Both the position numbers and the translations under genes were made by a program. A stretch of DNA of 56,095 nucleotides from positions 1 through 56,095 of the forward strand of contig JAILOK010000042.1 of NCBI GenBank assembly GCA_024690825.1, written 5' to 3'. The notes under the pieces were generated by a model, which was not told the origin of the DNA, made no database searches, and worked only from the letters and a program-made list of their open reading frames with translations. Below, piece by piece: positions 4,449 through 40,508 of the stretch. The stretch is from Lachnospiraceae bacterium. GTDB taxonomy: Bacteria; Bacillota; Clostridia; Lachnospirales; Lachnospiraceae. Each line of letters starts with the position of its first letter. Positions within the stretch are counted from its first letter, which is position 1.

Positions 4449-7400
4449 ATGTATCAGGTCGTACTTACTTTTCAGATATTCAGCATCATAGCGCTGTTCA
4501 TAGAAACCATCGTGGTCTTCAAAAACTGGAGGAGCACGGTGCATTCCTGGCTGTTTCTAAGCTGTACCGCCACGCTCATAAATAATATAGGCTACCTTTT
4601 CGAACTGCTCAGCAGCACGGAAGAAGCCTACATGACAGCATTGAAGATATCCTATTTTGGAAGGATATGGACTATCTACGCCCTTTTCATGTTCGTTGCC
4701 GAATTCGTCCGCGCAAAGCTTCCCCGCTACATGAAATATGTTCTGTCGGCCATAAATACCGTCACGTATCTGATCGTCATAACGACGGAAAAGACAGGTC
4801 TTTATTATGCGTATACGACATATACGCATAACGGGAGTTTTCCGATCTTTTATCATGTTGACGGGATATGGCATATGTTATGGTCCGGGATGATAATGTT
4901 CTACACGGTCTTTGGCATGACCATTCTTATCCTGGCATATGTAAGGGAAAAAAGAAGTATCGCAAAAACCAGGATATTCATGGTCATCCTTGCAATAGCC
5001 ACACAGACATTCTTTGTTTTTATCGAAACATTCAAACTTATCCCCTTTATCGAGCAGGTATATGATGTGACCATGCTCAGCTTCCCCATAGCAGCAGTCT
5101 TTATGTTCATAGCGATCTTCCGTTATGATCTCCTTGATACCGAGGATCTTGCCAAGGAGTATGTGGTAAATGAACTGTCGGAGGGCATCATAGCCGTTGA
5201 TCTGGAAAATGATGTGAGGTTTTATAATAAATCCGCCCTGTCGATCTTTCCGGCGCTTACCGTAAATCCGGAAAGCGTGATCAGGAGGATCAGGAGAAGG
5301 ATTAAAAACAATAAACCCCTGAAGGTGAACGGCAGGATCTATTCCGCCGAAGAAAATACGCTCATGCAGAACGGCAATCCTTCGGGCACGCTCTTCTCAC
5401 TGGCCGATGATACCGAGCACTTCCGCTATATGTCGGAACTTGAGGAACAGAAGACTCTGGCTGATGCGGCAAACAAAGCAAAGTCTGCCTTTCTTGCAAA
5501 TATGTCCCATGAGATCAGGACGCCCATAAATGCCGTGCTCGGTATGGACGAGATGATCCTGCGTGAGAGCAGGGAAAAGGATATCATTTCCTATGCCTCC
5601 GATATCAGATCCGCGGGGCGCACCCTTTTGTCCCTTATCAATGATATCCTTGATTTTTCAAAGATCGAGGAAGGAAAGATGGAGATCATCCCGACACAGT
5701 ATGAGCTTTCATCCCTGATCGGCGATCTTGTAAATATGATAAAGGACCGCGCGGAAAAGAAAGGCCTTCATTTTGAGGCGGATGTGGAAAGCACCATTCC
5801 GCATGTATTATATGGAGACGAGATCCGCATCAAGCAGGTTGCCTTAAATCTTCTTACCAACGCGGTCAAATATACCGAGACAGGAACGGTAAAGCTAGAG
5901 GTTTCGCATGTAAAACATGAGAATGAGGAAATAGATCTCTGTATTTCGGTGTCAGACACCGGCATCGGAATGAAGCCGGAGGATATGACCAGGCTCTTTT
6001 CTCCTTTTTCGAGGATAGAGGAAAAGAGAAACCGCACCATCGAGGGCACGGGTCTGGGCATGAGCATAGTGGAGCAGCTGCTGGCGCTCATGGATTCAAA
6101 GCTTGATGTGCAGAGCAGATACGGAACAGGCTCCACCTTTTCCTTTGCTGTCAGACAGAAAGTCATAAAGGACAGTCCCATAGGAGACTTTAATGCAAGA
6201 TACGAAAAAGCGGTTCATGCTCCCGGCCAGTACAGGGAACTTTTTCACGCGCCCGACGCAAGAGTGCTCGTGGTGGATGACAATGAAGTCAATCTTACCG
6301 TCATCACAAATCTGCTCAAAGGAACACAGATAAAGGTTGACACCGTCCTTTCCGGAAGAGAAGCGATAGTACAGTGTACCAAAAATGATTATGATGTCTG
6401 CTTCATCGATCATATGATGCCTGAGATGGACGGCATAGAGACTCTGCATGAGCTTCAAAAGCAGGATGCGGGAAGGGGAATCAGTCCCGTGTATGTCGCG
6501 CTTACGGCAAATGCAGTTTCGGGAGCGCGCGAGAGATATCTGAATGCCGGTTTTACCGATTATGTATCAAAGCCCGTTGACGGAGCAAGACTTGAAGAAC
6601 TGCTCCGCAGTTACCTGCCCTCAGAAAAGATCAAGGAAGTAAAAAAAGACGAAACCGGCACGGCGGTTACGGATAATAAGGACAGACTCAGAAATGTCCT
6701 TGTCGTGGATGATGATGAAGTCATATGCGTGACCGTAAAGGAGATACTCGGCAGATCTTTTATTGTGCAAAGCTGCATGGACGGCAATGAGGCACTTATC
6801 ATCGCAAAGAACGATCATCCCGATCTCATACTGCTTGACATCAATATGTCCGGCATGAACGGTTTTGAAGTGTTTGAAAAATTAAAGGAAAACGGGTCCA
6901 CAAAGGACATCCCCGTGATGTATATCACTGCCGACGAGGACAGGGAAAAGGAAGCTGCGGCGTTAAAAAACGGTGCCCAGGATCTGATCAGAAAGCCCTT
7001 CGTCCCCGAAGTTCTCCTGCAGCGCTGCAAGCGTACCATAGCCCTTGACAGATATCAGAAGAACCTGCAGGGAGAAGTTGACAGGCAGACAGACCGCGCC
7101 GAAAGACTCAACCAGGAAATGATGTTCGCGCTTTCCAGGGCAGTCGACGCAAAGGATCATTATACGAACGGCCATTCGGAGCGTGTGGCATCCTATTCGG
7201 CGGAGATCGCCAGGAGACTCGGAAAGAGTTTTGAGGAACAGAAAAAGATCTATGAGATGGGCCTGCTTCATGACATAGGAAAGATCGGCGTGCCCGAGGA
7301 GATAATAAACAAAACGGCAAAGCTTACCGATGAGGAATTCGAGCGCATCAAAGAGCATACCACCATCGGATACAATATCTTAAAAGACCTGACCGATATG

Positions 7401-8396
7401 CCTGAGCTTTCAAAGGGGGCCAGGTCGCATCATGAAAAATATGACGGCAGCGGATATCCGGATCATCTTTCGGGTGACGCCATCCCCGAGGAAGCGCGCA
7501 TCATCTGCGTGGCCGACTGCTATGACGCCATGACGAGTACAAGGACCTATTCAAAGCCCAAAGACCAGCAGGTGGTAAGGGCCGAGATCGAAAGGTGCAA
7601 GGGAAAGCACTTTGATCCCGTGATAGCAGATGTCATGATCGCCATGATAGATGATGACAAAGACTATATCATGAACGAGCTAAATGACGGGAGGAGCATC
7701 TGGAAGGGAAGGGAACTGCTGCTTGAACCTGTAAAGATCAGAGCAGAGGATACCGTTTCCGGAAGTGAGGAAGCACAGGATATTCCCGACGGGGATACGG
7801 CAGAAGCAGATATTCCCTCCCGGATAGAAAATATAGAGCAGATCGATGTCAAAGCGGGCATTGCAAACTGCGGAGGAAAGGAGAGCTTCCTTTCTGTCCT
7901 TGATGTGTTTGGAAGTACTGCCGGGCAGAAGGCGGACGAGATCGAAAAGCTTTATAATGAGAATGATATTGAAAACTATACGATAAAGGTCCATGCGCTC
8001 AAAAGCTCTGCCCGCATAATAGGAGCAGCAAAGCTTTCGGACAGGGCAAGGCTTCTTGAGGAGGCGGGAAAGAAGAACGATACGGATTATATTTCGGCCA
8101 ATACAAAGGAGCTGCTTTCGATGTACAGGGCGCTTGAGGAGGAACTGTCTTCGGGGGACAAAGAGCCGGAAAAACGCCCCGGACTTTCGGATGAAGAACG
8201 AAAGGAAGCATTCAACACCATATCCGAAATAGCCGGCAGCATGGATTTCGGAATGATGGAGGATCTGTTAAAGGATCTGGAAGGGTACGATCTGTCGGAG
8301 GGAGACAGGAAGATACTTAAAGACATAAGGGGCAGGCTGATGGATCTTGACTGGGACGGTATCACGGAAATAACAGCCGGGATCATCGGTTCATAA
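4449..8396 (+). CDS. 7TM hybrid histidine kinase with two receivers, HD-GYP and HPt domains
   Basis: A 1315-residue membrane signalling protein. Seven hydrophobic segments lie in about residues 5-230, then a PAS-like linker. The dimerisation and phosphoacceptor helix is SHEIRTPINAVLGM (His354); the ATPase domain shows NLLTNAVKY, DTGIGM and GTGLGMSI. Receiver 1 has Asp654 (FIDHMMPEMDG, later SKPV) and receiver 2 Asp797 (LLDINMSGMNG, later RKPF). The HD-GYP domain keeps HDIGK (His941-Asp942), HHEKYDGSGYP and the downstream D, so it is predicted to be an active cyclic-di-GMP phosphodiesterase. The HPt domain has HALKSS (His1182). An AAAGGA site precedes the ATG. The receiver protein 27 bases downstream is the probable phosphorelay target. 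The input signal is unknown; the order of domains is unusual and argues for intramolecular phosphate relay controlling cyclic-di-GMP. Confidence 0.93.
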   Translation: MYQVVLTFQIFSIIALFIETIVVFKNWRSTVHSWLFLSCTATLINNIGYLFELLSSTEEAYMTALKISYFGRIWTIYALFMFVAEFVRAKLPRYMKYVLSAINTVTYLIVITTEKTGLYYAYTTYTHNGSFPIFYHVDGIWHMLWSGMIMFYTVFGMTILILAYVREKRSIAKTRIFMVILAIATQTFFVFIETFKLIPFIEQVYDVTMLSFPIAAVFMFIAIFRYDLLDTEDLAKEYVVNELSEGIIAVDLENDVRFYNKSALSIFPALTVNPESVIRRIRRRIKNNKPLKVNGRIYSAEENTLMQNGNPSGTLFSLADDTEHFRYMSELEEQKTLADAANKAKSAFLANMSHEIRTPINAVLGMDEMILRESREKDIISYASDIRSAGRTLLSLINDILDFSKIEEGKMEIIPTQYELSSLIGDLVNMIKDRAEKKGLHFEADVESTIPHVLYGDEIRIKQVALNLLTNAVKYTETGTVKLEVSHVKHENEEIDLCISVSDTGIGMKPEDMTRLFSPFSRIEEKRNRTIEGTGLGMSIVEQLLALMDSKLDVQSRYGTGSTFSFAVRQKVIKDSPIGDFNARYEKAVHAPGQYRELFHAPDARVLVVDDNEVNLTVITNLLKGTQIKVDTVLSGREAIVQCTKNDYDVCFIDHMMPEMDGIETLHELQKQDAGRGISPVYVALTANAVSGARERYLNAGFTDYVSKPVDGARLEELLRSYLPSEKIKEVKKDETGTAVTDNKDRLRNVLVVDDDEVICVTVKEILGRSFIVQSCMDGNEALIIAKNDHPDLILLDINMSGMNGFEVFEKLKENGSTKDIPVMYITADEDREKEAAALKNGAQDLIRKPFVPEVLLQRCKRTIALDRYQKNLQGEVDRQTDRAERLNQEMMFALSRAVDAKDHYTNGHSERVASYSAEIARRLGKSFEEQKKIYEMGLLHDIGKIGVPEEIINKTAKLTDEEFERIKEHTTIGYNILKDLTDMPELSKGARSHHEKYDGSGYPDHLSGDAIPEEARIICVADCYDAMTSTRTYSKPKDQQVVRAEIERCKGKHFDPVIADVMIAMIDDDKDYIMNELNDGRSIWKGRELLLEPVKIRAEDTVSGSEEAQDIPDGDTAEADIPSRIENIEQIDVKAGIANCGGKESFLSVLDVFGSTAGQKADEIEKLYNENDIENYTIKVHALKSSARIIGAAKLSDRARLLEEAGKKNDTDYISANTKELLSMYRALEEELSSGDKEPEKRPGLSDEERKEAFNTISEIAGSMDFGMMEDLLKDLEGYDLSEGDRKILKDIRGRLMDLDWDGITEITAGIIGS

Positions 8397-8423: not shown

Positions 8424-9200
8424 ATGGATAATGATCAAAAACAGGGTGAAGTGATAGTCATAAGCTCCACGGAAAGTTTTCTGGCAAAGAGTCTGATAGG
8501 AAAGATCACATCAAATGATATTAAAGCCACGCTTTCACACGGAGAGATAAAAGATATCGAGCCGAAACGGGAGAACCTCGAGCTGGTCGTGCTCTTTATG
8601 GGTGAGGATATCGAGAATATGACTGAGTCGCTGGTCTACCTTAAGGATCTTGCAAGCGATCTTGAACGCAGGATCATACTCATAGGGGAGCAGGACCAGT
8701 ATGATATCGTCAAAAAGACGGTGCCGGAGCATCTGATACTTGAGTGGTTCAAAAGACCTCTTGTCATGGATGATCTGTTAAACTGTATTTTCAAATACAT
8801 GGAAAACAATACGGGCGAGCATGCCAAAAAGACAGTTCTCATAGTTGACGATGACATCACCTACATGCGTACGGTTTATGAATGGCTCAAAGACAGATAT
8901 CATGTCGGTATGGCAGGAAACGGCGTGCAGGCCATAAGTTATCTTGCAAAGAACAAAGCGGATCTTGTGCTGCTTGATTATGAGATGCCCATCGCAAACG
9001 GACCGCAGGTGCTTTCCATGCTCAAAAACGATTCACAGACGGAAGAGATCCCTGTCATGTTTCTGACCGGACACGGTGACAGGGAAAGCGTTCTTTCCGT
9101 GGTCGGACTTTCACCGGTGGATTATCTTTTAAAGACCATAACCAAGGCGGAGCTTCTGCAGAAGCTTGATGATTTCTTCGCAAAAAGAGCGAAACACTGA
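8424..9200 (+). CDS. Tandem pseudo-receiver/receiver response regulator without output domain
   Basis: 258 residues. The first half (about 10-120) has a receiver-like pattern but lacks the acidic pocket and phosphoacceptor, so it is a degenerate receiver. The second half is a full receiver: VLIVDDD near 139-145, phosphoacceptor Asp185 in LLDYEMP, and FLTGH. The conserved Lys is followed by Thr (LLKTITK) rather than the usual Pro. There is no DNA-binding or enzymatic domain, so it probably acts by protein contact, as CheY or Spo0F does. It follows the HD-GYP/HPt kinase with a GGAGG site and is likely to exchange phosphate with that HPt. It is clearly paralogous to the protein at 36791-37549. 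Confidence 0.88.
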   Translation: MDNDQKQGEVIVISSTESFLAKSLIGKITSNDIKATLSHGEIKDIEPKRENLELVVLFMGEDIENMTESLVYLKDLASDLERRIILIGEQDQYDIVKKTVPEHLILEWFKRPLVMDDLLNCIFKYMENNTGEHAKKTVLIVDDDITYMRTVYEWLKDRYHVGMAGNGVQAISYLAKNKADLVLLDYEMPIANGPQVLSMLKNDSQTEEIPVMFLTGHGDRESVLSVVGLSPVDYLLKTITKAELLQKLDDFFAKRAKH

Positions 9201-29569: not shown

Positions 29570-31309
29570 ATGAAGGGGAAGCGTAGACTATTAAAGGGGA
29601 TAGGAGTCTGTGACAGGATAGGTGTCGGCAAGGCTGTAGTCATAAGGGAGATAAAGCCTGTTTATGCCGAAAAGAGCAGACGCGGCGTAAAAAAAGAGAC
29701 AAAGCGTTTTGAGCTGGCTGAAGAGGTCTTTACGGACCAGCTCAAGCATCTCATAGAATATGCCAGAAAGGATGTCGGAGACGCCGAGGCGGATATCCTG
29801 GAAGGTCAGCTAATTCTTTCGACAGACTCGTCGATCTCAAGGCAGGTCAGGGAAAAGATAGAACAGGGACTTTCCGCAGAGTATGCGGTTGAGTCCGTGT
29901 GTAAAAAATACATTTCATCCTTTACGGATTCGGAAGACCCGTCACTTAAGGAAAAAGCGGACGATATCCGCGATATCATGAACGGTCTTCTGGTAATGAT
30001 ATCCGGAGAAGGAAGCATTCCAATGATGGATATTCCCGATGGATCCGTCATCATAGGGCGTGAACTCAATCCGGCCCTCATCACATCCCTCTATAATAAA
30101 AAAATACACGGCATAGTCACGGAAAGCGGCAGCGGTTCAGGCCATGCGGCTCTGATAGCGCGCTCTCTTTCCATACCTGCTGTTTTTTCCGCAAGCGGTG
30201 TTATGAGACTTGTCGTAAGCGGACAGGAAGTCATCGTAAACGGCAATGAAGGAATAGTTTATATTAATCCTTCAAACGAAGACAAAAAGATAAACGCAGG
30301 AAAAAAGAAGGAACTTGAGGAATGTTTAAGGGTACTTCAGAAATACAGGGATATACCAACGAAAACCGCGGATGGTATTTCCTGCAGGGTTATGTGCAAT
30401 ATCGGCTCCTTTGAAGAGGCTGAGGCTTCCACATCGAACGGGTGTGAGGGAATCGGCCTGTTTCGAACGGAGCTTATCTTCCAGCATGATTTTACTGAAC
30501 CTGCGGAAGATGAACAGTACGAGATGTACAGAAGAGTGGTGCTTTCTTCAAGGGGTAAGGATGTGGTAATAAGGACCCTTGATATCGGGGGAGACAAGAT
30601 GATGCCGTTCTTTGCAATGGGCGCCAGGGGAAGGGCCGCGCTTGAAAAGAATCCCTTTCTCGGACTTCGCGGTATTAGGCAGAGCCTGGCATACAGGGAT
30701 CATTTCATAACTCAGATAAAGGCGATACTGCGCGCGGCGGTACACGGGAATGTATCCATTATGCTTCCCCTTGTGACAAATATCGATGAACTGAGGGAAA
30801 CAAAAAGGATAATCATACAGGCTGCGAAGGAACTTGAAGCCGAGGAGAAGGAATATAAATACGGGATCCCTCTGGGAGTGATGATAGAAACGCCGGCAGC
30901 GGTCTTTATCGCTCCGGATATCGCGCGCGAAGTTGATTTTCTGTCCATAGGAAGCAACGATCTCATTCAGTATGTCATGTGCGCGGAAAGGGGAAATCCC
31001 GGCGTGGAATATCTGTCATCAGTGTTCGAACCGGCCGTGCTCAGGGCTGTTCATGCGGTCATAGAGGCAGCGCACTCTCAGGGCATCAAGGTGAGCATGT
31101 GCGGTGAAGCAGCCCGTGATAAAAGGCTGATACCGCTTCTTGTGGCATGGGGTCTTGATGACTATTCCGTTAATGTTTCCAGTGTTGCCGCGGTGCGAAG
31201 GGAAATAGCGCGGTACAAAAAGGATGATGCTATTAAGATGGCTGAAAAGGTTCTTGCCATGTCTGCCCGTCAGGATATCGAAAAATATCTGGAATCGAGT
31301 GTGTATTAA
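29570..31309 (+). CDS. ptsI: Phosphoenolpyruvate-protein phosphotransferase (PTS enzyme I)
   Basis: 579 residues with the normal three parts: N-terminal HPr-binding helices, the phosphohistidine swivel domain, and the PEP-binding barrel. The active His is in SGSGHAALIAR; the usual sequence around it is SHTAIMAR, so the loop is a variant. The barrel has GIGLFRTELIF, GSNDLIQY and the catalytic Cys in VSMCGEAARD. It starts sugar uptake by passing phosphate from PEP to HPr. The ribosome binding site is weak and the gene probably depends on coupling to fruK, four bases upstream. Confidence 0.92.
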   Translation: MKGKRRLLKGIGVCDRIGVGKAVVIREIKPVYAEKSRRGVKKETKRFELAEEVFTDQLKHLIEYARKDVGDAEADILEGQLILSTDSSISRQVREKIEQGLSAEYAVESVCKKYISSFTDSEDPSLKEKADDIRDIMNGLLVMISGEGSIPMMDIPDGSVIIGRELNPALITSLYNKKIHGIVTESGSGSGHAALIARSLSIPAVFSASGVMRLVVSGQEVIVNGNEGIVYINPSNEDKKINAGKKKELEECLRVLQKYRDIPTKTADGISCRVMCNIGSFEEAEASTSNGCEGIGLFRTELIFQHDFTEPAEDEQYEMYRRVVLSSRGKDVVIRTLDIGGDKMMPFFAMGARGRAALEKNPFLGLRGIRQSLAYRDHFITQIKAILRAAVHGNVSIMLPLVTNIDELRETKRIIIQAAKELEAEEKEYKYGIPLGVMIETPAAVFIAPDIAREVDFLSIGSNDLIQYVMCAERGNPGVEYLSSVFEPAVLRAVHAVIEAAHSQGIKVSMCGEAARDKRLIPLLVAWGLDDYSVNVSSVAAVRREIARYKKDDAIKMAEKVLAMSARQDIEKYLESSVY

Positions 31310-31332: not shown

Positions 31333-33384
31333 GTGGACGACATTAAAAAAGAACGGTTGATGATATCTATCATTACCGTATCCGGGATCGGAAACATAGC
31401 CGAAAGCATCATTGCCGGATGGGAATTATGGGTGATACCGATCATCATCATCGGTACCATCTGCATCTGGTGGATGCATTTTGCGCAGAAATCCGATATC
31501 AGGATCAGAACCAATGTTTATTTTGTCTTTGCGGCATTTCTGGGCTTTTATCACGGAGTTCACGATGTCAGTTTTTTTGATGTCTCGGTGGTTGCGCTCA
31601 TCATGATGGCAACATTTATGATGGCTGACCGTGCAGTTCTGCTGAATCTGATCCTTTTTGAATATGTCATGCTGATGGCGATCCAGTCTGCCATGCTTTT
31701 CCGTCATCCCGGAGTGGATGTAACCCCTGTTTTTATTATACGGACCCTGCTGCATGCGGGAGTTGTGCTGTGCATGTATTTTATCGGCCGCATCCTGGTC
31801 AGAAGCAGGATAAATGCCGGAAGGAAGCTTGACGAATGGAAGGAAGCGGTAAGAGAGAACGATCATGACATGGAGGATTTCCTTTCCAATATCTCCCATG
31901 AACTGCGTACACCGGTAAATGTGATAAGCGGCATGACGACACTGCTTCAGAAAGATAATGACTGTGATGAGCTTGATTCGATCCGTGATGCCGGTGTCAG
32001 ACTTGCGGATCAGATAGAGGATATCCAGGATTATACGGAGATAAAAAGAGGCGAGCTTCTTGTTGAGGAGGATAATTATACGATCATCTCTCTCATCAAT
32101 GATGTTGTCGCAAACTACAGAATGAATAAAAAGAGGGACGATCTGGAATTTATAGTGGATCTGGCACCCGATACTCCTGCTGTGATGAAGGGAGATATCA
32201 AAAAACTTCACAAGCTCTTCAGACATCTCATTGACAATGCTGTCAAATTCACAGGACGCGGCGGCATATATATAAAGGTCTTTCCCGTGGTCCGGGAATA
32301 TGGCGTCAACCTTACGATCGAAGTGTCGGACACGGGTATGGGAATGACGCGTACGGACATCGCCCGTGTTTCAAAGGGAATGTATCAGGCCAACAAAAAA
32401 AGAAACCGCAGCACCGGAGGCATAGGCATAGGACTTCCCATAGTATACGGTTTTGTCCACAGGATGGGAGGGTTTGTAAAGATAAACAGCAAGAAAGGAA
32501 GAGGGTCCACGGTCCGTCTTTCGATCCCTCAGGATGTGATCGATCCTTCCCCCTGTCTTGCGGTAAAGGACAAGGTGGAGGGAGATCTGGTTTTCTACAT
32601 AAAGCCCGAAAAGTACACAGTGCCCGAGATAAGGGAATACTACAGGAATATGTCCGTGAATCTGGCAACGGGGCTGAAAGCAAGGCTGTACAGCGCCGGA
32701 GAGCCGGGAGAGCTTGAAAGACTGATAAAGGATCTTGATGTGTCATATATTTTCACCGGAGAGGAAGAATACACGGCAGATCATGAGATGCTTGATGAGC
32801 TGTCAGCGAAAGGCTGCAGAGTGGTGGTGTCCGCAAACGACGGATTCAGACCGGAAAAGGAAAGCGGCGTTTTGGTGATGCAAAAGCCCCTCTATGGGTT
32901 CCCGGTTGTCTGCATATTAAACGGTGAGGAAAATCTCGCAAATGAGAACACCGAAAAGGTCAGATTTACGGGAGTCAGCGCCCTCGTCGTGGATGATGAG
33001 CCCATGAACCTGGTCGTGGCTACGGGTCTTTTAAGGGAATACAGGATGTTTGCCGATACCGCTGAAAGCGGAAGGGAAGCAGTGGAAAAATACAGGAACG
33101 GTGAATATGATGTGGTTTTCATGGACCATATGATGCCAGGAATGGATGGCGTTGAAGCGATGAAACACATAAGAGAGGCGGCGGATGAGAGCGGCAGGAA
33201 GCCGGTTATCATTGCCCTGACAGCAAATGCCCTAAGCGGTGCAAAAGAGATGTTCACGAGGGAAGGATTTGACGGTTTCATTGCCAAGCCCATCAATCTG
33301 ACGGAATTTGAAAGGGTCATGAAACGTGTTCTGCCCGAAGACCTGATTAAACAGGAAGGGAGGGATGAGCATGAGACCCTTTGA
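31333..33384 (+). CDS. Membrane hybrid histidine kinase with one receiver
   Basis: 683 residues. The first 160 hold about five to six membrane helices, with no extracellular sensor domain of size. Then HisKA with SHELRTPVNVISG (His189), ATPase with HLIDNAVKF, DTGMGM and GGIGIGLPIVYGF, a linker of about 140 residues, and a receiver (Asp598 in FMDHMMPGMDG, then IAKPI). It has no HPt domain, so it probably donates through the HPt of the next gene. The start is GTG, preceded by AAGGAG; an ATG two bases earlier is out of frame. It overlaps the following kinase gene. Confidence 0.92.
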   Translation: MDDIKKERLMISIITVSGIGNIAESIIAGWELWVIPIIIIGTICIWWMHFAQKSDIRIRTNVYFVFAAFLGFYHGVHDVSFFDVSVVALIMMATFMMADRAVLLNLILFEYVMLMAIQSAMLFRHPGVDVTPVFIIRTLLHAGVVLCMYFIGRILVRSRINAGRKLDEWKEAVRENDHDMEDFLSNISHELRTPVNVISGMTTLLQKDNDCDELDSIRDAGVRLADQIEDIQDYTEIKRGELLVEEDNYTIISLINDVVANYRMNKKRDDLEFIVDLAPDTPAVMKGDIKKLHKLFRHLIDNAVKFTGRGGIYIKVFPVVREYGVNLTIEVSDTGMGMTRTDIARVSKGMYQANKKRNRSTGGIGIGLPIVYGFVHRMGGFVKINSKKGRGSTVRLSIPQDVIDPSPCLAVKDKVEGDLVFYIKPEKYTVPEIREYYRNMSVNLATGLKARLYSAGEPGELERLIKDLDVSYIFTGEEEYTADHEMLDELSAKGCRVVVSANDGFRPEKESGVLVMQKPLYGFPVVCILNGEENLANENTEKVRFTGVSALVVDDEPMNLVVATGLLREYRMFADTAESGREAVEKYRNGEYDVVFMDHMMPGMDGVEAMKHIREAADESGRKPVIIALTANALSGAKEMFTREGFDGFIAKPINLTEFERVMKRVLPEDLIKQEGRDEHETL

Positions 33385-36300
33385 ACGGATCAAAAAAAAG
33401 ATAGGCGATTATCTGTTTGATTCATCGATATATGTAAAAGACAGGACTTTTGTGCTGTTTACTGTCTGTGAACTGGCGGCCCTGCTGTTGAACTCGATCA
33501 TAGGTTTCATCCTCGGAGAGGTGTTCTCTTCCGTATTTGTGTCACTTGTCGGAGTGGTTGCCGGACTCCTGATCATTTATATTTTTGCAAAAAAAGGCAG
33601 GATGGAAACAGCAAAGATCGTCCTGACGCTTGTACTTGTACTGGTCTTAAGGCCGTTGTCCTATTTCTCAAAAGGCGGAATAGACAACGGAACGCTGATC
33701 ATGTTCCTTATCGGGGGTTATTATCTGGTACTGGTCCTTGACGGGAAATTCCGTATCTTTATGTGCATTCTTGATACGGTGATCCTTATCATATGCGGCA
33801 GTGTGGCCTATTATCACCCTGAGCTTCTTCCCGCATATTCTCGTGAAAACGATTTTATCTATTCCTATGTCCAATATATAATTGCGTTTGTCGTGCTTAC
33901 GATACTCATTACCTTCTGGACAGCGATCTTGAAAAAGGAGACACAGAAGGCCGATGAAAAATCCAGAGAACTGGAAGAACTGAACAGATCCCAGAGCAGA
34001 TTTTTCTCCAGCATGAGCCACGAGATACGGACCCCTATCAATACGGTCCTGGGGCTTAATGAGATAATACTTCGTCAGGAGGATGCATCCGAAGAGATAA
34101 AAAAGGACGCCAGAAGCATCCAGGGTGCGGGAAAGATGCTGCTTGCTCTCATCAATGACATCCTCGATATTTCAAAGATAGAAGCCGGAAAAATGGATAT
34201 AGTGCCTGTAAACTATAATGTATCATCCCTTCTTTCCGAGATCGTCGATATGATCTGGCTCAAAGCCGATGAAAAAGGCCTTAAATTCAATGTCGATATA
34301 GATCCCGATGTGCCGGAAATACTGTTCGGCGATGAAGTGCGGATCAAACAGATCCTGATAAATCTTCTCAATAACGCTGTCAAGTACACTAAAGAGGGCT
34401 CCGTGGGCTTGCACATGGAATGTGAGTTTCCCGAAGGCAGGAATGCGCTTTTAAGGGTCGTTGTATCCGATACCGGAATGGGGATCAAGCCTGAGGCTCT
34501 GCCGCATCTTTTTGACACATTTCAGAGAGTTGATGAAGAAAAGAACCGTTATATAGAGGGAACGGGCCTGGGTCTTTCGATCGTAAAACAGCTTGTAGAG
34601 ATCATGGACGGCCGGATCACCGTGAACAGTGTTTATGGCCAGGGCTCTTCCTTTACTGTTGAGGTAAAACAGGGAATATCATCCGATAAACGCATAGGTG
34701 ATATAAGTGTGACAAATACCGGAAGCATCACGGGATCGGAAAAATTCAGACACAGATTCAGGGCGCCGTCCGCAAGGATCCTCATCGTGGATGACAATGA
34801 GATGAACCTCCAGGTCGAGCAGAAGCTGATCGAAGGAACGAAAATGACTGTGGATCTGGCTCTTTCCGGAGAGGAAGCGCTTACCAAAACACTTCAGAAC
34901 CGTTATGATGTCATCTTTATGGATCATCTGATGCCGGAGATGGACGGTATAGAATGCTATGAAAAGATCCGCCTTCAAAAGGGAGGCCTCAATACAAGTG
35001 TTCCGGTCATAGCGCTCACTGCAAATGCCGGCGGAGAGAATATCGAACTGTATAATAATACCGGATTTGACGGTTATCTTGTAAAGCCTGTTTCCGGCAG
35101 GCAGCTGGAGGATATGCTTATGGCTCATCTTCCGGGAGAAAAGGTGATCGCGATCGGTGAGAGCGGAATGACGGTTTCTGCGATGAGCACGGCAAGCGGA
35201 TATGCCAGAAAGAAACCGGTGATCATTGCAACAAGCTCCATGAGTGACCTGCCGGCGGATGTATTAAAAGAACTTCAGATAGAGATCGTTCCTTATAAAG
35301 TCACTACAGAAGACAGAGTGTTCTTTGATAATATTGATATTGATTCCGACGAACTGGTCAGGTATATGGGCGATGAATTAAAACCGACTTTGTCGGAACC
35401 GCCTTCGGAGGATGAACTTGTAAGCTTCTTTGCAGTCGGACTGCAGAGGGCTCATCATCTGATATATATCACTCTCACTACGGGAAGCAGCAGGGAGTAC
35501 GGATGGGCTGTTAATGCGGCTAAATCCTTTGACAATGTTACCATTATAAACTCCGAGAACATGTCGAGCGCAACAGGTATCCTTGTACTGATCGCCGCAA
35601 GGCTTGCTTCACAGAACCTGCCGGTAGAAAAGATCATATCGGGACTTGAGGAGGCTAAAACAAAGATCAGCTGCAGCTTTGTGATCAGAAATACCGAGGT
35701 TATGGCGCGGCGCGGCAGGATAAGTCCTTTCATGAACGGAGTGCTGGGAACTTTGTGGCTGCGGCCTGTACTCAGGGTTAAAAATGATAAACTGGGTGTA
35801 GGCTCTTTCCTGTTCGGAGATGACAGGAGATGCTACGAGAAATATATAAAGAGCGCGATACCTTCCGGCGTAACGCCTGATACATCGATCGCTTTTATCA
35901 CCTATGCGGGAATGGAGGAAGAGGATCTGATCTGGATAGAGGAGAAGCTTAAGGAAAAGATCTCGTTCGAAAAGATCATATTCCAGAAAGCATCCGCCGG
36001 CATCACATCAAACTGCGGTCCGGGAACCTTCGGCATCATTTACATGGTCAGGAGTGATCACAATTATAATCTTGGAGCGTTTTTTGCGGATGAAAAAGCA
36101 GATTATCTTGAGCCTTATGAAGATGACGGGCCGGATGAACCGGATGCTGCGGATGAGCTGCATGAACAGGAAAATGATAAGCCTGCCTCAAAAGAGGTGA
36201 AGTGGTATGAAAACATCCCCGAACTTGATGTTGAAGCAGCTGTAAAAAACAGCGGATCAGAGGAAGCATTCCTGTCGGTGCTGAAGATCTATTATGATTC

Positions 36301-36775
36301 TTTTGAGACCAGATCCGGGGAGATACAGGAATTCTATGACCAAAAGGATTGGGAAAACTATACCATCAAAGTGCATGCCCTGAAGAGCAGTTCGAGACTT
36401 GTCGGAGCCATGAAACTGGGAACTGATGCCGAAGCGCTCGAAATGGCAGGCAAGCAGGGGGATATTGACTATATAACGGGTCATCATGATAAAATGATGG
36501 ACGGATACCGGGCCATAAGAAATAAGCTTGATGCGGGATTTGGCAGACAGAGGGAAGGACTGCCTGAGATACCCCCGGAAATACTTGCCGATGCTTACGG
36601 AGGCATTGCGGAATTTGCGGACAACATGGATTATGAGCTTGTTAAAATGGTCATGGATTCGGTGATGGAATACAGACTGCCTCCGGATGACGAAGAGCGG
36701 TTTGACCGGATACAGAAAAAACTGTCACAGATGGACTGGGACGGGATCAAAGAGACTGTACATGAAGTGATATAG
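33371..36775 (+). CDS. Membrane hybrid histidine kinase carrying a DegV fatty-acid-binding domain and HPt
   Basis: Residue numbers count from an alternative ATG at 33365, two codons upstream; 33371 is preferred because GGAGG then lies seven bases away. Membrane helices fill about 28-195. HisKA has SHEIRTPINTVLG (His219), ATPase has NLLNNAVKY, DTGMGIK and GTGLGLSI, and the receiver has Asp520 in FMDHLMPEMDG, then LVKPVS. Residues about 617-890 are a complete DegV domain: IIATSSMSDLPADVLKEL, IEIVPYKV, LSEPPSEDELVSFF, LTTGSSREYG, INSENMSSATGILVL, RRGRISPF and the final CGPGTFGIIY. DegV proteins bind a fatty acid and, as FakB, present it to FakA. The C-terminus is an HPt domain (HALKSSSRLVGA, His1004). 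Phosphorelay gated by a lipid is inferred. Confidence 0.9.
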   Translation: MRPFERIKKKIGDYLFDSSIYVKDRTFVLFTVCELAALLLNSIIGFILGEVFSSVFVSLVGVVAGLLIIYIFAKKGRMETAKIVLTLVLVLVLRPLSYFSKGGIDNGTLIMFLIGGYYLVLVLDGKFRIFMCILDTVILIICGSVAYYHPELLPAYSRENDFIYSYVQYIIAFVVLTILITFWTAILKKETQKADEKSRELEELNRSQSRFFSSMSHEIRTPINTVLGLNEIILRQEDASEEIKKDARSIQGAGKMLLALINDILDISKIEAGKMDIVPVNYNVSSLLSEIVDMIWLKADEKGLKFNVDIDPDVPEILFGDEVRIKQILINLLNNAVKYTKEGSVGLHMECEFPEGRNALLRVVVSDTGMGIKPEALPHLFDTFQRVDEEKNRYIEGTGLGLSIVKQLVEIMDGRITVNSVYGQGSSFTVEVKQGISSDKRIGDISVTNTGSITGSEKFRHRFRAPSARILIVDDNEMNLQVEQKLIEGTKMTVDLALSGEEALTKTLQNRYDVIFMDHLMPEMDGIECYEKIRLQKGGLNTSVPVIALTANAGGENIELYNNTGFDGYLVKPVSGRQLEDMLMAHLPGEKVIAIGESGMTVSAMSTASGYARKKPVIIATSSMSDLPADVLKELQIEIVPYKVTTEDRVFFDNIDIDSDELVRYMGDELKPTLSEPPSEDELVSFFAVGLQRAHHLIYITLTTGSSREYGWAVNAAKSFDNVTIINSENMSSATGILVLIAARLASQNLPVEKIISGLEEAKTKISCSFVIRNTEVMARRGRISPFMNGVLGTLWLRPVLRVKNDKLGVGSFLFGDDRRCYEKYIKSAIPSGVTPDTSIAFITYAGMEEEDLIWIEEKLKEKISFEKIIFQKASAGITSNCGPGTFGIIYMVRSDHNYNLGAFFADEKADYLEPYEDDGPDEPDAADELHEQENDKPASKEVKWYENIPELDVEAAVKNSGSEEAFLSVLKIYYDSFETRSGEIQEFYDQKDWENYTIKVHALKSSSRLVGAMKLGTDAEALEMAGKQGDIDYITGHHDKMMDGYRAIRNKLDAGFGRQREGLPEIPPEILADAYGGIAEFADNMDYELVKMVMDSVMEYRLPPDDEERFDRIQKKLSQMDWDGIKETVHEVI

Positions 36776-36790
36776 GAGGGACCTTAAAAG

Positions 36791-37549
36791 ATGATCCACA
36801 ACAAAGTACTGATAGCTGCACCGGCAGAGGGTTTTATCATCAAGGGAATAGAGACAAAACTTCAAAGCATCGGTGTTGAATCGGAATACATAGCTCCCAG
36901 AGTAAAAGAGATCGAGAGCAGATGGAAGAATGCGGATCTGATCATAATCTATACCGATGACAGCATCTCGACTGTTGTTGATGTGCTCATGTACATAAAG
37001 GAAATCTGCTCAAAGTCGGATCTTCAGATCATGGTGATAGGCGCAAAAACAGAATACGAGACAGTAAATAAATATATACCGGATGGATTCATATTCAGGT
37101 TTTATGAAAGACCGCTTGATATGGACAACTTCCTGTCCGATGTGGAAAACTATATGAATGAGGACTCCAGACAGGCATTAAAAATGAGTATCCTCATTGT
37201 GGATGATGATGTGTCATACATGACCATGATAATGGACTGGCTCAGGGACAGATACCGTGTATCACTTGCAAATTCCGGCATGCAGGCCATAACCTGGCTT
37301 ACAAAAAATCATGCCGATCTGATACTGCTCGACTATGAAATGCCGGTCACAACCGGACCCCAGGTCCTTGAAATGATCAGATCCGAAGAAACAATGGCTG
37401 ACATCCCCGTCATGTTCCTGACGGGAAAGAAAGATAAAGAAAGCATCATGAAGGTGCTCGCTCTCAAGCCCGTAGGCTATCAGCTGAAAACGGTGACAAA
37501 AGAAGAACTGCGCACCAACATCGCAAACTTCTTCGCATCCCGGAAATGA
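36791..37549 (+). CDS. Tandem pseudo-receiver/receiver response regulator without output domain
   Basis: 252 residues, paralogous end to end with 8424-9200. The N-terminal half is receiver-like without phosphorylation residues; the C-terminal half is a full receiver with ILIVDDDVSYM, Asp181 in LLDYEMP and FLTGK. Lys is again followed by Thr (QLKTVTK) in place of Pro. With no output domain it should signal by protein contact. It lies 15 bases after the DegV-HPt kinase, which is its likely phosphodonor. A terminator follows. Confidence 0.88.
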   Translation: MIHNKVLIAAPAEGFIIKGIETKLQSIGVESEYIAPRVKEIESRWKNADLIIIYTDDSISTVVDVLMYIKEICSKSDLQIMVIGAKTEYETVNKYIPDGFIFRFYERPLDMDNFLSDVENYMNEDSRQALKMSILIVDDDVSYMTMIMDWLRDRYRVSLANSGMQAITWLTKNHADLILLDYEMPVTTGPQVLEMIRSEETMADIPVMFLTGKKDKESIMKVLALKPVGYQLKTVTKEELRTNIANFFASRK

Positions 37550-40097: not shown

Positions 40098-40508
40098 TTA
40101 TTTCAGGAATCTCATCTTGTTTCCGTCAGCCAGCTTCTTTTTGGGCTCCGGTTTGGGAGCTTCGGGCTTTGCGATGGCATTGCCGAGTCCTCTTGCAACA
40201 TCCTGTTTGCACTTTTCACAGAAACGGCCTGAAAGGATCTTGGTACCGCAGTTTTCGCATGTCAGATCGGATCCTTCTATAGAGCCGAACACCAGACGTT
40301 CTTCCCGAAGCCACTGCCTGATAAGTCCTACTTCGATCTCGCAGGCTTCGGCAACAGCTGCCACAGTTGTGTGGGGATTGTTCCGGATATACTCCTTTGC
40401 CTTTGTGAAGTCCTCCTCCTGAGCCTTCCTGCATGTCGGGCAGATATGCGGTCCGCTCACATAGTTATAGATCATTCCGCACTTTCTGCAGTTTTCAACA
40501 CTACTCAT
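40098..40508 (-). CDS. yvyF: YvyF-type flagellar-operon protein (zinc ribbon, HTH, zinc ribbon)
   Basis: 136 residues. An N-terminal zinc ribbon (CRKCG, CPTC), a helix-turn-helix-like middle (TTVAAVAEACEIEVGLIRQWL), a second ribbon (CENCG, FCEKC), and a basic Pro-Lys tail. This layout matches B. subtilis YvyF, a protein of the flagellar regulator operon. Its exact activity is not settled; DNA or RNA binding is suggested by the fold. Here it is alone on the minus strand, not beside flgM or flgK. AAGGAGGT precedes the ATG. Confidence 0.8.
   Translation of the reverse strand: MSSVENCRKCGMIYNYVSGPHICPTCRKAQEEDFTKAKEYIRNNPHTTVAAVAEACEIEVGLIRQWLREERLVFGSIEGSDLTCENCGTKILSGRFCEKCKQDVARGLGNAIAKPEAPKPEPKKKLADGNKMRFLK

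Follow-up and report, generated by a model that had tools for sequence, protein, structure and literature searches.

DegV/FakB proteins are known as fatty-acid carriers. In this study, we investigated a DegV domain that is built into a membrane hybrid histidine kinase, encoded on a stretch of 56,095 nucleotides from a Lachnospiraceae bacterium (contig JAILOK010000042.1 of assembly GCA_024690825.1; the whole stretch is referred to as the window), and observed that this kinase is one half of a conserved two-kinase module in which no pair of kinases holds two HPt domains. For the carrier FakB1 of S. aureus, passages of PMC8892158 and PMC9136124 assign Arg205 to docking to FakA and to the membrane, describe Arg173 as needed for the FakA reaction, and place Thr62, Ser95, Ser171 and His270 in a network around the fatty-acid carboxylate; a passage of PMC8892158 also calls Arg205 and Arg173 completely conserved across the FakB family. 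Like FakB/DegV proteins (PF02645), the window domain matches the profile over its full length, has the same fold and keeps Ser95 and Arg173, but it is fused to a kinase, falls in a separate clade, and shares with its fused relatives the changes at Arg205 and His270 that are counted below.

With reference to hybrid histidine kinase phosphorelays, the same HisKA, HATPase, receiver (REC) and HPt domains with their phosphosites are found here, whereas the kinases come in pairs that probably share a single HPt per pair, with a DegV domain in addition; the nearest NCBIfam profiles are those of TorS, BarA and LuxQ, and all of them score below their own cut-offs. RpfC/RpfG, the diffusible signal factor (DSF) system of Xanthomonas, may be regarded as the nearest functional analogue, by domain order, neighbours and the hypothesised fatty-acid signal. 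As described in part of PMC5391125, a fatty acid activates its membrane hybrid kinase, and an HD-GYP protein degrades cyclic dimeric guanosine monophosphate (c-di-GMP). The two systems share a hybrid kinase in the membrane that carries REC and HPt, and several relatives of the window module adjoin a receiver-HD protein of the HD-GYP class, the arrangement of kinase-REC-HPt beside a receiver-HD gene being present in loci such as L043, L044, L049 and L050; five hydrophobic stretches were counted in three of the partner kinases (window, L115 and L116). The differences are that a second kinase with DegV is present here, that the window module has no HD-GYP neighbour, and that the window partner has no HPt. 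No description of a DegV-kinase fusion was met in the passages of the open-licence papers searched, and none of the DegV passages of PMC3146951, PMC3533761 and PMC3091722 is about such a fusion, which agrees with the first-pass annotation of this DNA, where no described system of the kind was known. This study adds three things: the kinases form a paired module, no pair has two HPts, and the DegV clade concerned lacks the FakA-docking arginine.

The DegV kinase of the window

The gene and its domains were placed as follows:
33365-36775, + strand: DegV hybrid histidine kinase, 1136 amino acids (aa), membrane region-HisKA-HATPase-REC-DegV-HPt-C-tail
33533-33931, + strand: N-terminal membrane region, five hydrophobic stretches by hydropathy, residues 57-189
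33992-34189, + strand: HisKA (Pfam), residues 210-275, phospho-acceptor H219
34328-34672, + strand: HATPase_c (Pfam), residues 322-436
34778-35119, + strand: REC (Pfam), residues 472-585, acceptor D520
35225-36046, + strand: DegV domain (PF02645), residues 621-894
36278-36463, + strand: HPt (Pfam), residues 972-1033, acceptor H1004

All hallmarks of a hybrid histidine kinase (the HisKA histidine, the HATPase and the receiver aspartate) are present in this protein. The first-pass annotation had recognised a full-length DegV domain between the receiver and the HPt of a hybrid kinase, and this is borne out: PF02645 matches significantly across nearly the whole profile (133 bits, E 1.2e-38, profile positions 4-278 of 280, cut-off 27), TIGR00762 gives 145 bits against a cut-off of 99.7, and every sequence motif then named is found in the translation. 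The gene had been placed at 33371-36775; its end stands and its start moves, since the open reading frame (ORF) opens at 33365, 33371 is the next in-frame ATG, and the earlier residue numbers are 2 lower. Compared with PDB sequences, all 20 matches of the DegV segment were DegV/FakB-type or unnamed (best E 2e-20). An AlphaFold2 model of REC plus DegV, built on seven sequences, reached a mean predicted local distance difference test (pLDDT) score of 80, and by Foldseek against the PDB it retrieved the DegV/FakB fold in the best 45 of the 50 listed rows, with template modelling (TM) scores of 0.76-0.87 by target length, many of these 45 structures being titled as fatty-acid bound. Modelling DegV, HPt and tail together on three sequences gave a mean pLDDT of just 45, and this model was discarded as poor. 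Against seven relatives, the window DegV domain showed 42-68% identity, the kinase 65-87% and the membrane region 15-49%; the two domains are thus better conserved than the membrane region, and so are the receiver and the HPt.

A conserved module of two kinases

Directly upstream of the DegV kinase gene, and overlapping it by 20 bases, lies a second hybrid kinase:
31333-33384, + strand: partner hybrid kinase, 683 aa, membrane region-HisKA (H189)-HATPase-middle domain-REC (D598)

No HPt was found in this partner by domain search. Its middle domain was considered as a true receiver and rejected, the profile similarity being weak (hhalign probability 5%, E 0.007).

Our table of relatives holds 75 DegV ORF rows from 74 loci (L019 is absent from it), of which five have no kinase in the ORF, namely L116, L117 and the cut or partial ORFs L040, L166 and L198. 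Among the 70 kinase-bearing DegV ORFs, 68 have the H-box, and in 64 the gene immediately upstream, in the same orientation, encodes another, distinct hybrid kinase, at a gap of -80 to +96 bases, most commonly -4. The six rows without an immediate partner (L051, L119, L123, L129, L133 and L193) are split, interrupted or at contig edges, and the partner or partner-like pieces lie nearby in L051, L123, L129 and L133. The pairing also holds from the side of the partner: for 57 of the 60 partner-type matches listed at E<=1e-200 in 299 genomes of the family, a DegV gene stands on the same strand no more than 8 kb away. Three matches remain. The G615 partner is succeeded by a truncated DegV kinase, of which the contig end leaves the first 124 aa; over 96 residues this fragment shows 96% identity to the DegV kinase of L119, on another contig of that genome. 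In G022 and G134, the partner genes themselves extend past the ends of their contigs. In a class sample, the partner kinase was detected in five of 148 genomes, all of which also carry the DegV kinase. By comparison, of 20 control hybrid kinases hand-picked from one listing, two have another kinase on the same strand at a distance of no more than two genes. The DegV kinase is thus half of a conserved two-kinase module.

The HPt of the 64 pairs lies on the partner in 48 and on the DegV kinase in 13, the window included; it is on both in none and on neither in three (Fisher p 4e-11, a statistic that ignores kinship). As to the three, a separate HPt gene adjoins the pair L061, the DegV ORF of L115 stands at a contig end with a 123-aa HPt ORF further upstream, and a cut receiver ORF of L191 runs off its contig; outside the 64 pairs, L133 has a receiver-HPt protein. 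By alignment, the HPt histidine is present in 49/49 partners and 17/17 DegV ORFs with an HPt, while a stricter motif pattern caught it in 33/49 partners. DegV kinases with an HPt tail group together in a single clade of 15 rows (SH-aLRT 83). The HPt thus seems to have been relocated more than once, although no pair has two of them. The control L207 has an HPt on both neighbouring kinases, so adjacent kinases need not share one; for the pairs studied here, the simplest reading is that both kinases would feed the same HPt.

A few loci depart from the common arrangement. L115:4432-7305 is permuted, with DegV at the N-terminus followed by six hydrophobic stretches, kinase and receiver, its ORF reaching the contig end. 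L116:4887-6131 is a 414-aa DegV-HPt protein without a kinase, flanked on one side by a partner-type kinase (559 aa, middle domain not found) and on the other by a receiver-GGDEF gene. L040 (2-1324 and 4174-7605) holds two DegV-HPt genes, the first cut by the locus start, on either side of a receiver gene and a partner kinase, and in L117 a free DegV ORF overlaps a kinase-receiver ORF, which may be a frameshift or a split gene.

The fused DegV clade and its residues

We aligned 61 DegV domains from fusions with 46 from free proteins and compared them in S. aureus FakB1 numbering; one of the free ones, that of L117, sits inside the fused clade and may come from the split or frameshifted gene. 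Arg205 is kept in none of the 61 fused domains against 44 of the 46 free ones (F817 in the window), and His270 in one against 44, Asn standing there in 57/61 fused (N883 in the window). Arg173 is kept in 23/61 fused and 45/46 free, and Ser95 in 36/61 and 45/46, both being retained in the window (R785 and S709). The position of Thr62 is ambiguous in the window, being Leu676 by phmmer against PDB chains and Ser677 by MAFFT. In a tree made by a quick method with midpoint root and no bootstrap, all 61 domains from fusions group with L117 and the DegV-HPt protein on one side of a long branch (SH-aLRT 100). Since Arg205 is missing from all 61, the fused domains are probably not working FakA substrates. 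They have strongly conserved columns of their own, and this looks like a new, retained function rather than decay.

We also inspected nine FakB1 positions named as tunnel, lid or dynamic residues in a part of PMC8892158. Seven of them (94, 121, 162, 191, 267, 271 and 276) are hydrophobic, Cys counted, in 50-61 of the 61 fused domains, and position 271, next to His270, is Cys in 45/61 fused and 14/46 free proteins.

Distribution

The source genome has eight DegV matches, two being ORFs of about 300 aa and six being ORFs of 725-1149 aa, all six of which combine kinase, receiver and DegV in local domain searches. It has one FakA-like gene, a second match falling below the cut-off. For the surveys, a receiver-DegV alignment of 41 sequences was used as the query, and 4-8 first-look candidates were scored per genome, so that copies per genome are lower bounds and negative genomes may hide a copy. 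At E<=1e-90, 48 of 299 sampled family genomes match, among them G654 only via the split L117, G559 only via an edge-cut copy and G622 via the permuted L115. In the class sample (E<=1e-70), 12 of 391 genomes match, nine with the full fusion, of which six belong to the family of the window and three to one other family, and three with free DegV only; in the phylum sample, the 12 matching genomes out of 398 comprise three fusion carriers, all from the window's family, and nine in which the matches are free DegV proteins only. The named relatives are five Lachnospiraceae bacteria and one Eubacterium sp. In the genomes sampled, the fusion is an established trait of part of one family, with slight spread beyond it.

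Neighbouring genes

Downstream of the kinase pair in the window lies a gene of the following kind:
36791-37549, + strand: receiver companion, 252 aa, C-terminal receiver, probable phosphate acceptor

Receiver proteins of about 252 aa also adjoin other hybrid kinases of the family. On the same strand and no more than two genes away, 33 of the 64 pairs have a GGDEF or HD gene (the HD domain being of the HD-GYP class, Pfam HD_5 where examples were scanned), 17 have only a lone receiver, and 14 have neither; a c-di-GMP enzyme is thus found within two genes in 33/64 modules against 5/20 control kinases (Fisher p 0.04, ignoring kinship). In the four pairs scanned (L182, L185, L187 and L197), the partner is preceded by a gene for a methyl-accepting chemotaxis protein with its MCP signalling domain, and the DegV kinases of the first three form one diverged tree branch (tree labels L034, L032 and L031).

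A gene resembling enzyme I of the phosphotransferase system (PTS) lies directly upstream of the kinase pair (window 29570-31309, + strand), and the DegV fold resembles EIIA-Man of that system. The PTS gene was left out of the module because the same-genus relative L055 carries a YfhO gene at that place.

Two further genes of the window were recorded. A 1315-aa protein (4449-8396, + strand) has a seven-transmembrane histidine-kinase N-terminus, HisKA, HATPase, two receiver stretches, HD_5 and HPt, and seems to be a whole phosphorelay to c-di-GMP in one polypeptide; a receiver protein of 258 aa is encoded just after it, at 8424-9200. A YvyF-like flagellar-region protein lies at 40098-40508 (- strand), its TIGR03826 score of 101 bits being below the cut-off of 124.

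Interpretation

The reading that we prefer, with a probability of about 0.5, is a phosphorelay of two kinases and one HPt in which DegV serves as a regulatory input for a lipid-like ligand. In such a relay, two membrane hybrid kinases from adjacent and often overlapping genes would pass phosphate from the receivers of both to the single HPt of the module, and the HPt would hand it to a separate receiver protein, which in the window is probably the 252-aa companion and in many relatives may be a protein that joins a receiver to a c-di-GMP enzyme. In the second kinase, DegV would be a former fatty-acid carrier turned regulatory input, which has kept the fold and lost the arginine for docking to FakA and the membrane; it most likely binds a lipid-like ligand, such as a fatty acid or a derivative, whose occupancy would bias the kinase or phosphatase activity of the pair. 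The fused DegV is best read as a regulatory and probably ligand-sensing domain, for which a lipid-like ligand is plausible. The lipid sensing proposed in the first-pass annotation is a reasonable hypothesis.

Several observations weigh against this phosphorelay reading. Position 158 is Thr, Ser or Cys in 58/61 fused domains and position 165 is Thr in 37/61; His270 has become Asn almost throughout, Ser95 is kept in little more than half, and the alignment at Thr62 is ambiguous, while a passage of PMC8892158 reports that mutations of the carboxylate network destabilise FakB proteins. With these residues changed, the ligand may be something other than a long-chain fatty acid, and a plain fatty acid of that kind is less certain than the earlier annotation assumed. 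Moreover, no c-di-GMP enzyme is encoded within two genes of the module in the window itself, the 14 modules noted above lack both an enzyme of this kind and a lone receiver at that distance, the enrichment for c-di-GMP enzymes is modest and was gauged on 20 hand-picked controls, and the shared flow of phosphate is deduced from gene content alone.

A somewhat doubtful alternative is that DegV binds no ligand and acts as a scaffold, with a surface for docking or dimerisation through which both kinases and the HPt are joined. The changed carboxylate network would agree with it, as would the fact that DegV takes C-terminal, pre-HPt or N-terminal positions in the chain, yet is accompanied by the partner kinase in nearly all loci (64/70). 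However, seven of the nine inspected positions stay hydrophobic, and the Asn at His270 together with the adjacent Cys suggests an altered site more than decay. It is unlikely that DegV senses a smaller or more polar ligand than a fatty acid in a remodelled pocket: the Asn at His270 and the Thr, Ser or Cys at position 158 point that way, but position 158 varies in free DegV proteins too (hydrophobic in 26/46), other tunnel positions remain hydrophobic, and the best 45 of the 50 structural matches listed were DegV/FakB, many of them fatty-acid bound by title.

The first-pass annotation had proposed that a bound fatty acid gates phosphate transfer to the HPt that follows DegV, the donor being the receiver of the same kinase. 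Both the window protein and the HPt-tailed clade have their domains in an order that would suit this, and DegV kinases with such an HPt do exist, but only in 13 of the 64 pairs; in 48 the HPt is on the partner with none behind DegV, and the N-terminal DegV of L115 and the kinase-free DegV-HPt protein of L116 also speak against it. Gating of this kind cannot hold as the general mechanism and is very unlikely. Most improbable of all is a working, membrane-tethered FakB that supplies fatty acid to FakA for phospholipid synthesis, since the FakA-like gene of the genome and the Arg173 of the window domain are outweighed by the absence of Arg205 in all 61 fused domains, the retention of Arg173 in just 23/61 of them, and the two free DegV proteins already available in the genome.

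Biological meaning

Returning to the two-kinase phosphorelay with a DegV input, one DegV/FakB clade appears to have quit the carrier role for signalling, with six copies in the source genome, and the co-encoded kinases that never hold two HPts offer a natural case of two kinases probably converging on one phosphotransfer domain. It is possible, rather than probable, that a carrier domain was captured once in an ancestor of these bacteria of gut and rumen, lost its docking to FakA, and is now the lipid receptor of a paired-kinase relay that sets c-di-GMP or chemotaxis, as an intracellular fatty-acid sensor for motility with RpfC/RpfG-like logic and a different fold. The built-in carrier-like domain and the conserved pairing, often beside genes for c-di-GMP, a second messenger linked to motility, may point to a lipid-sensing switch. 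If DegV senses fatty acids, gut and rumen Lachnospiraceae would be able to couple their lipid status directly to c-di-GMP or chemotaxis.

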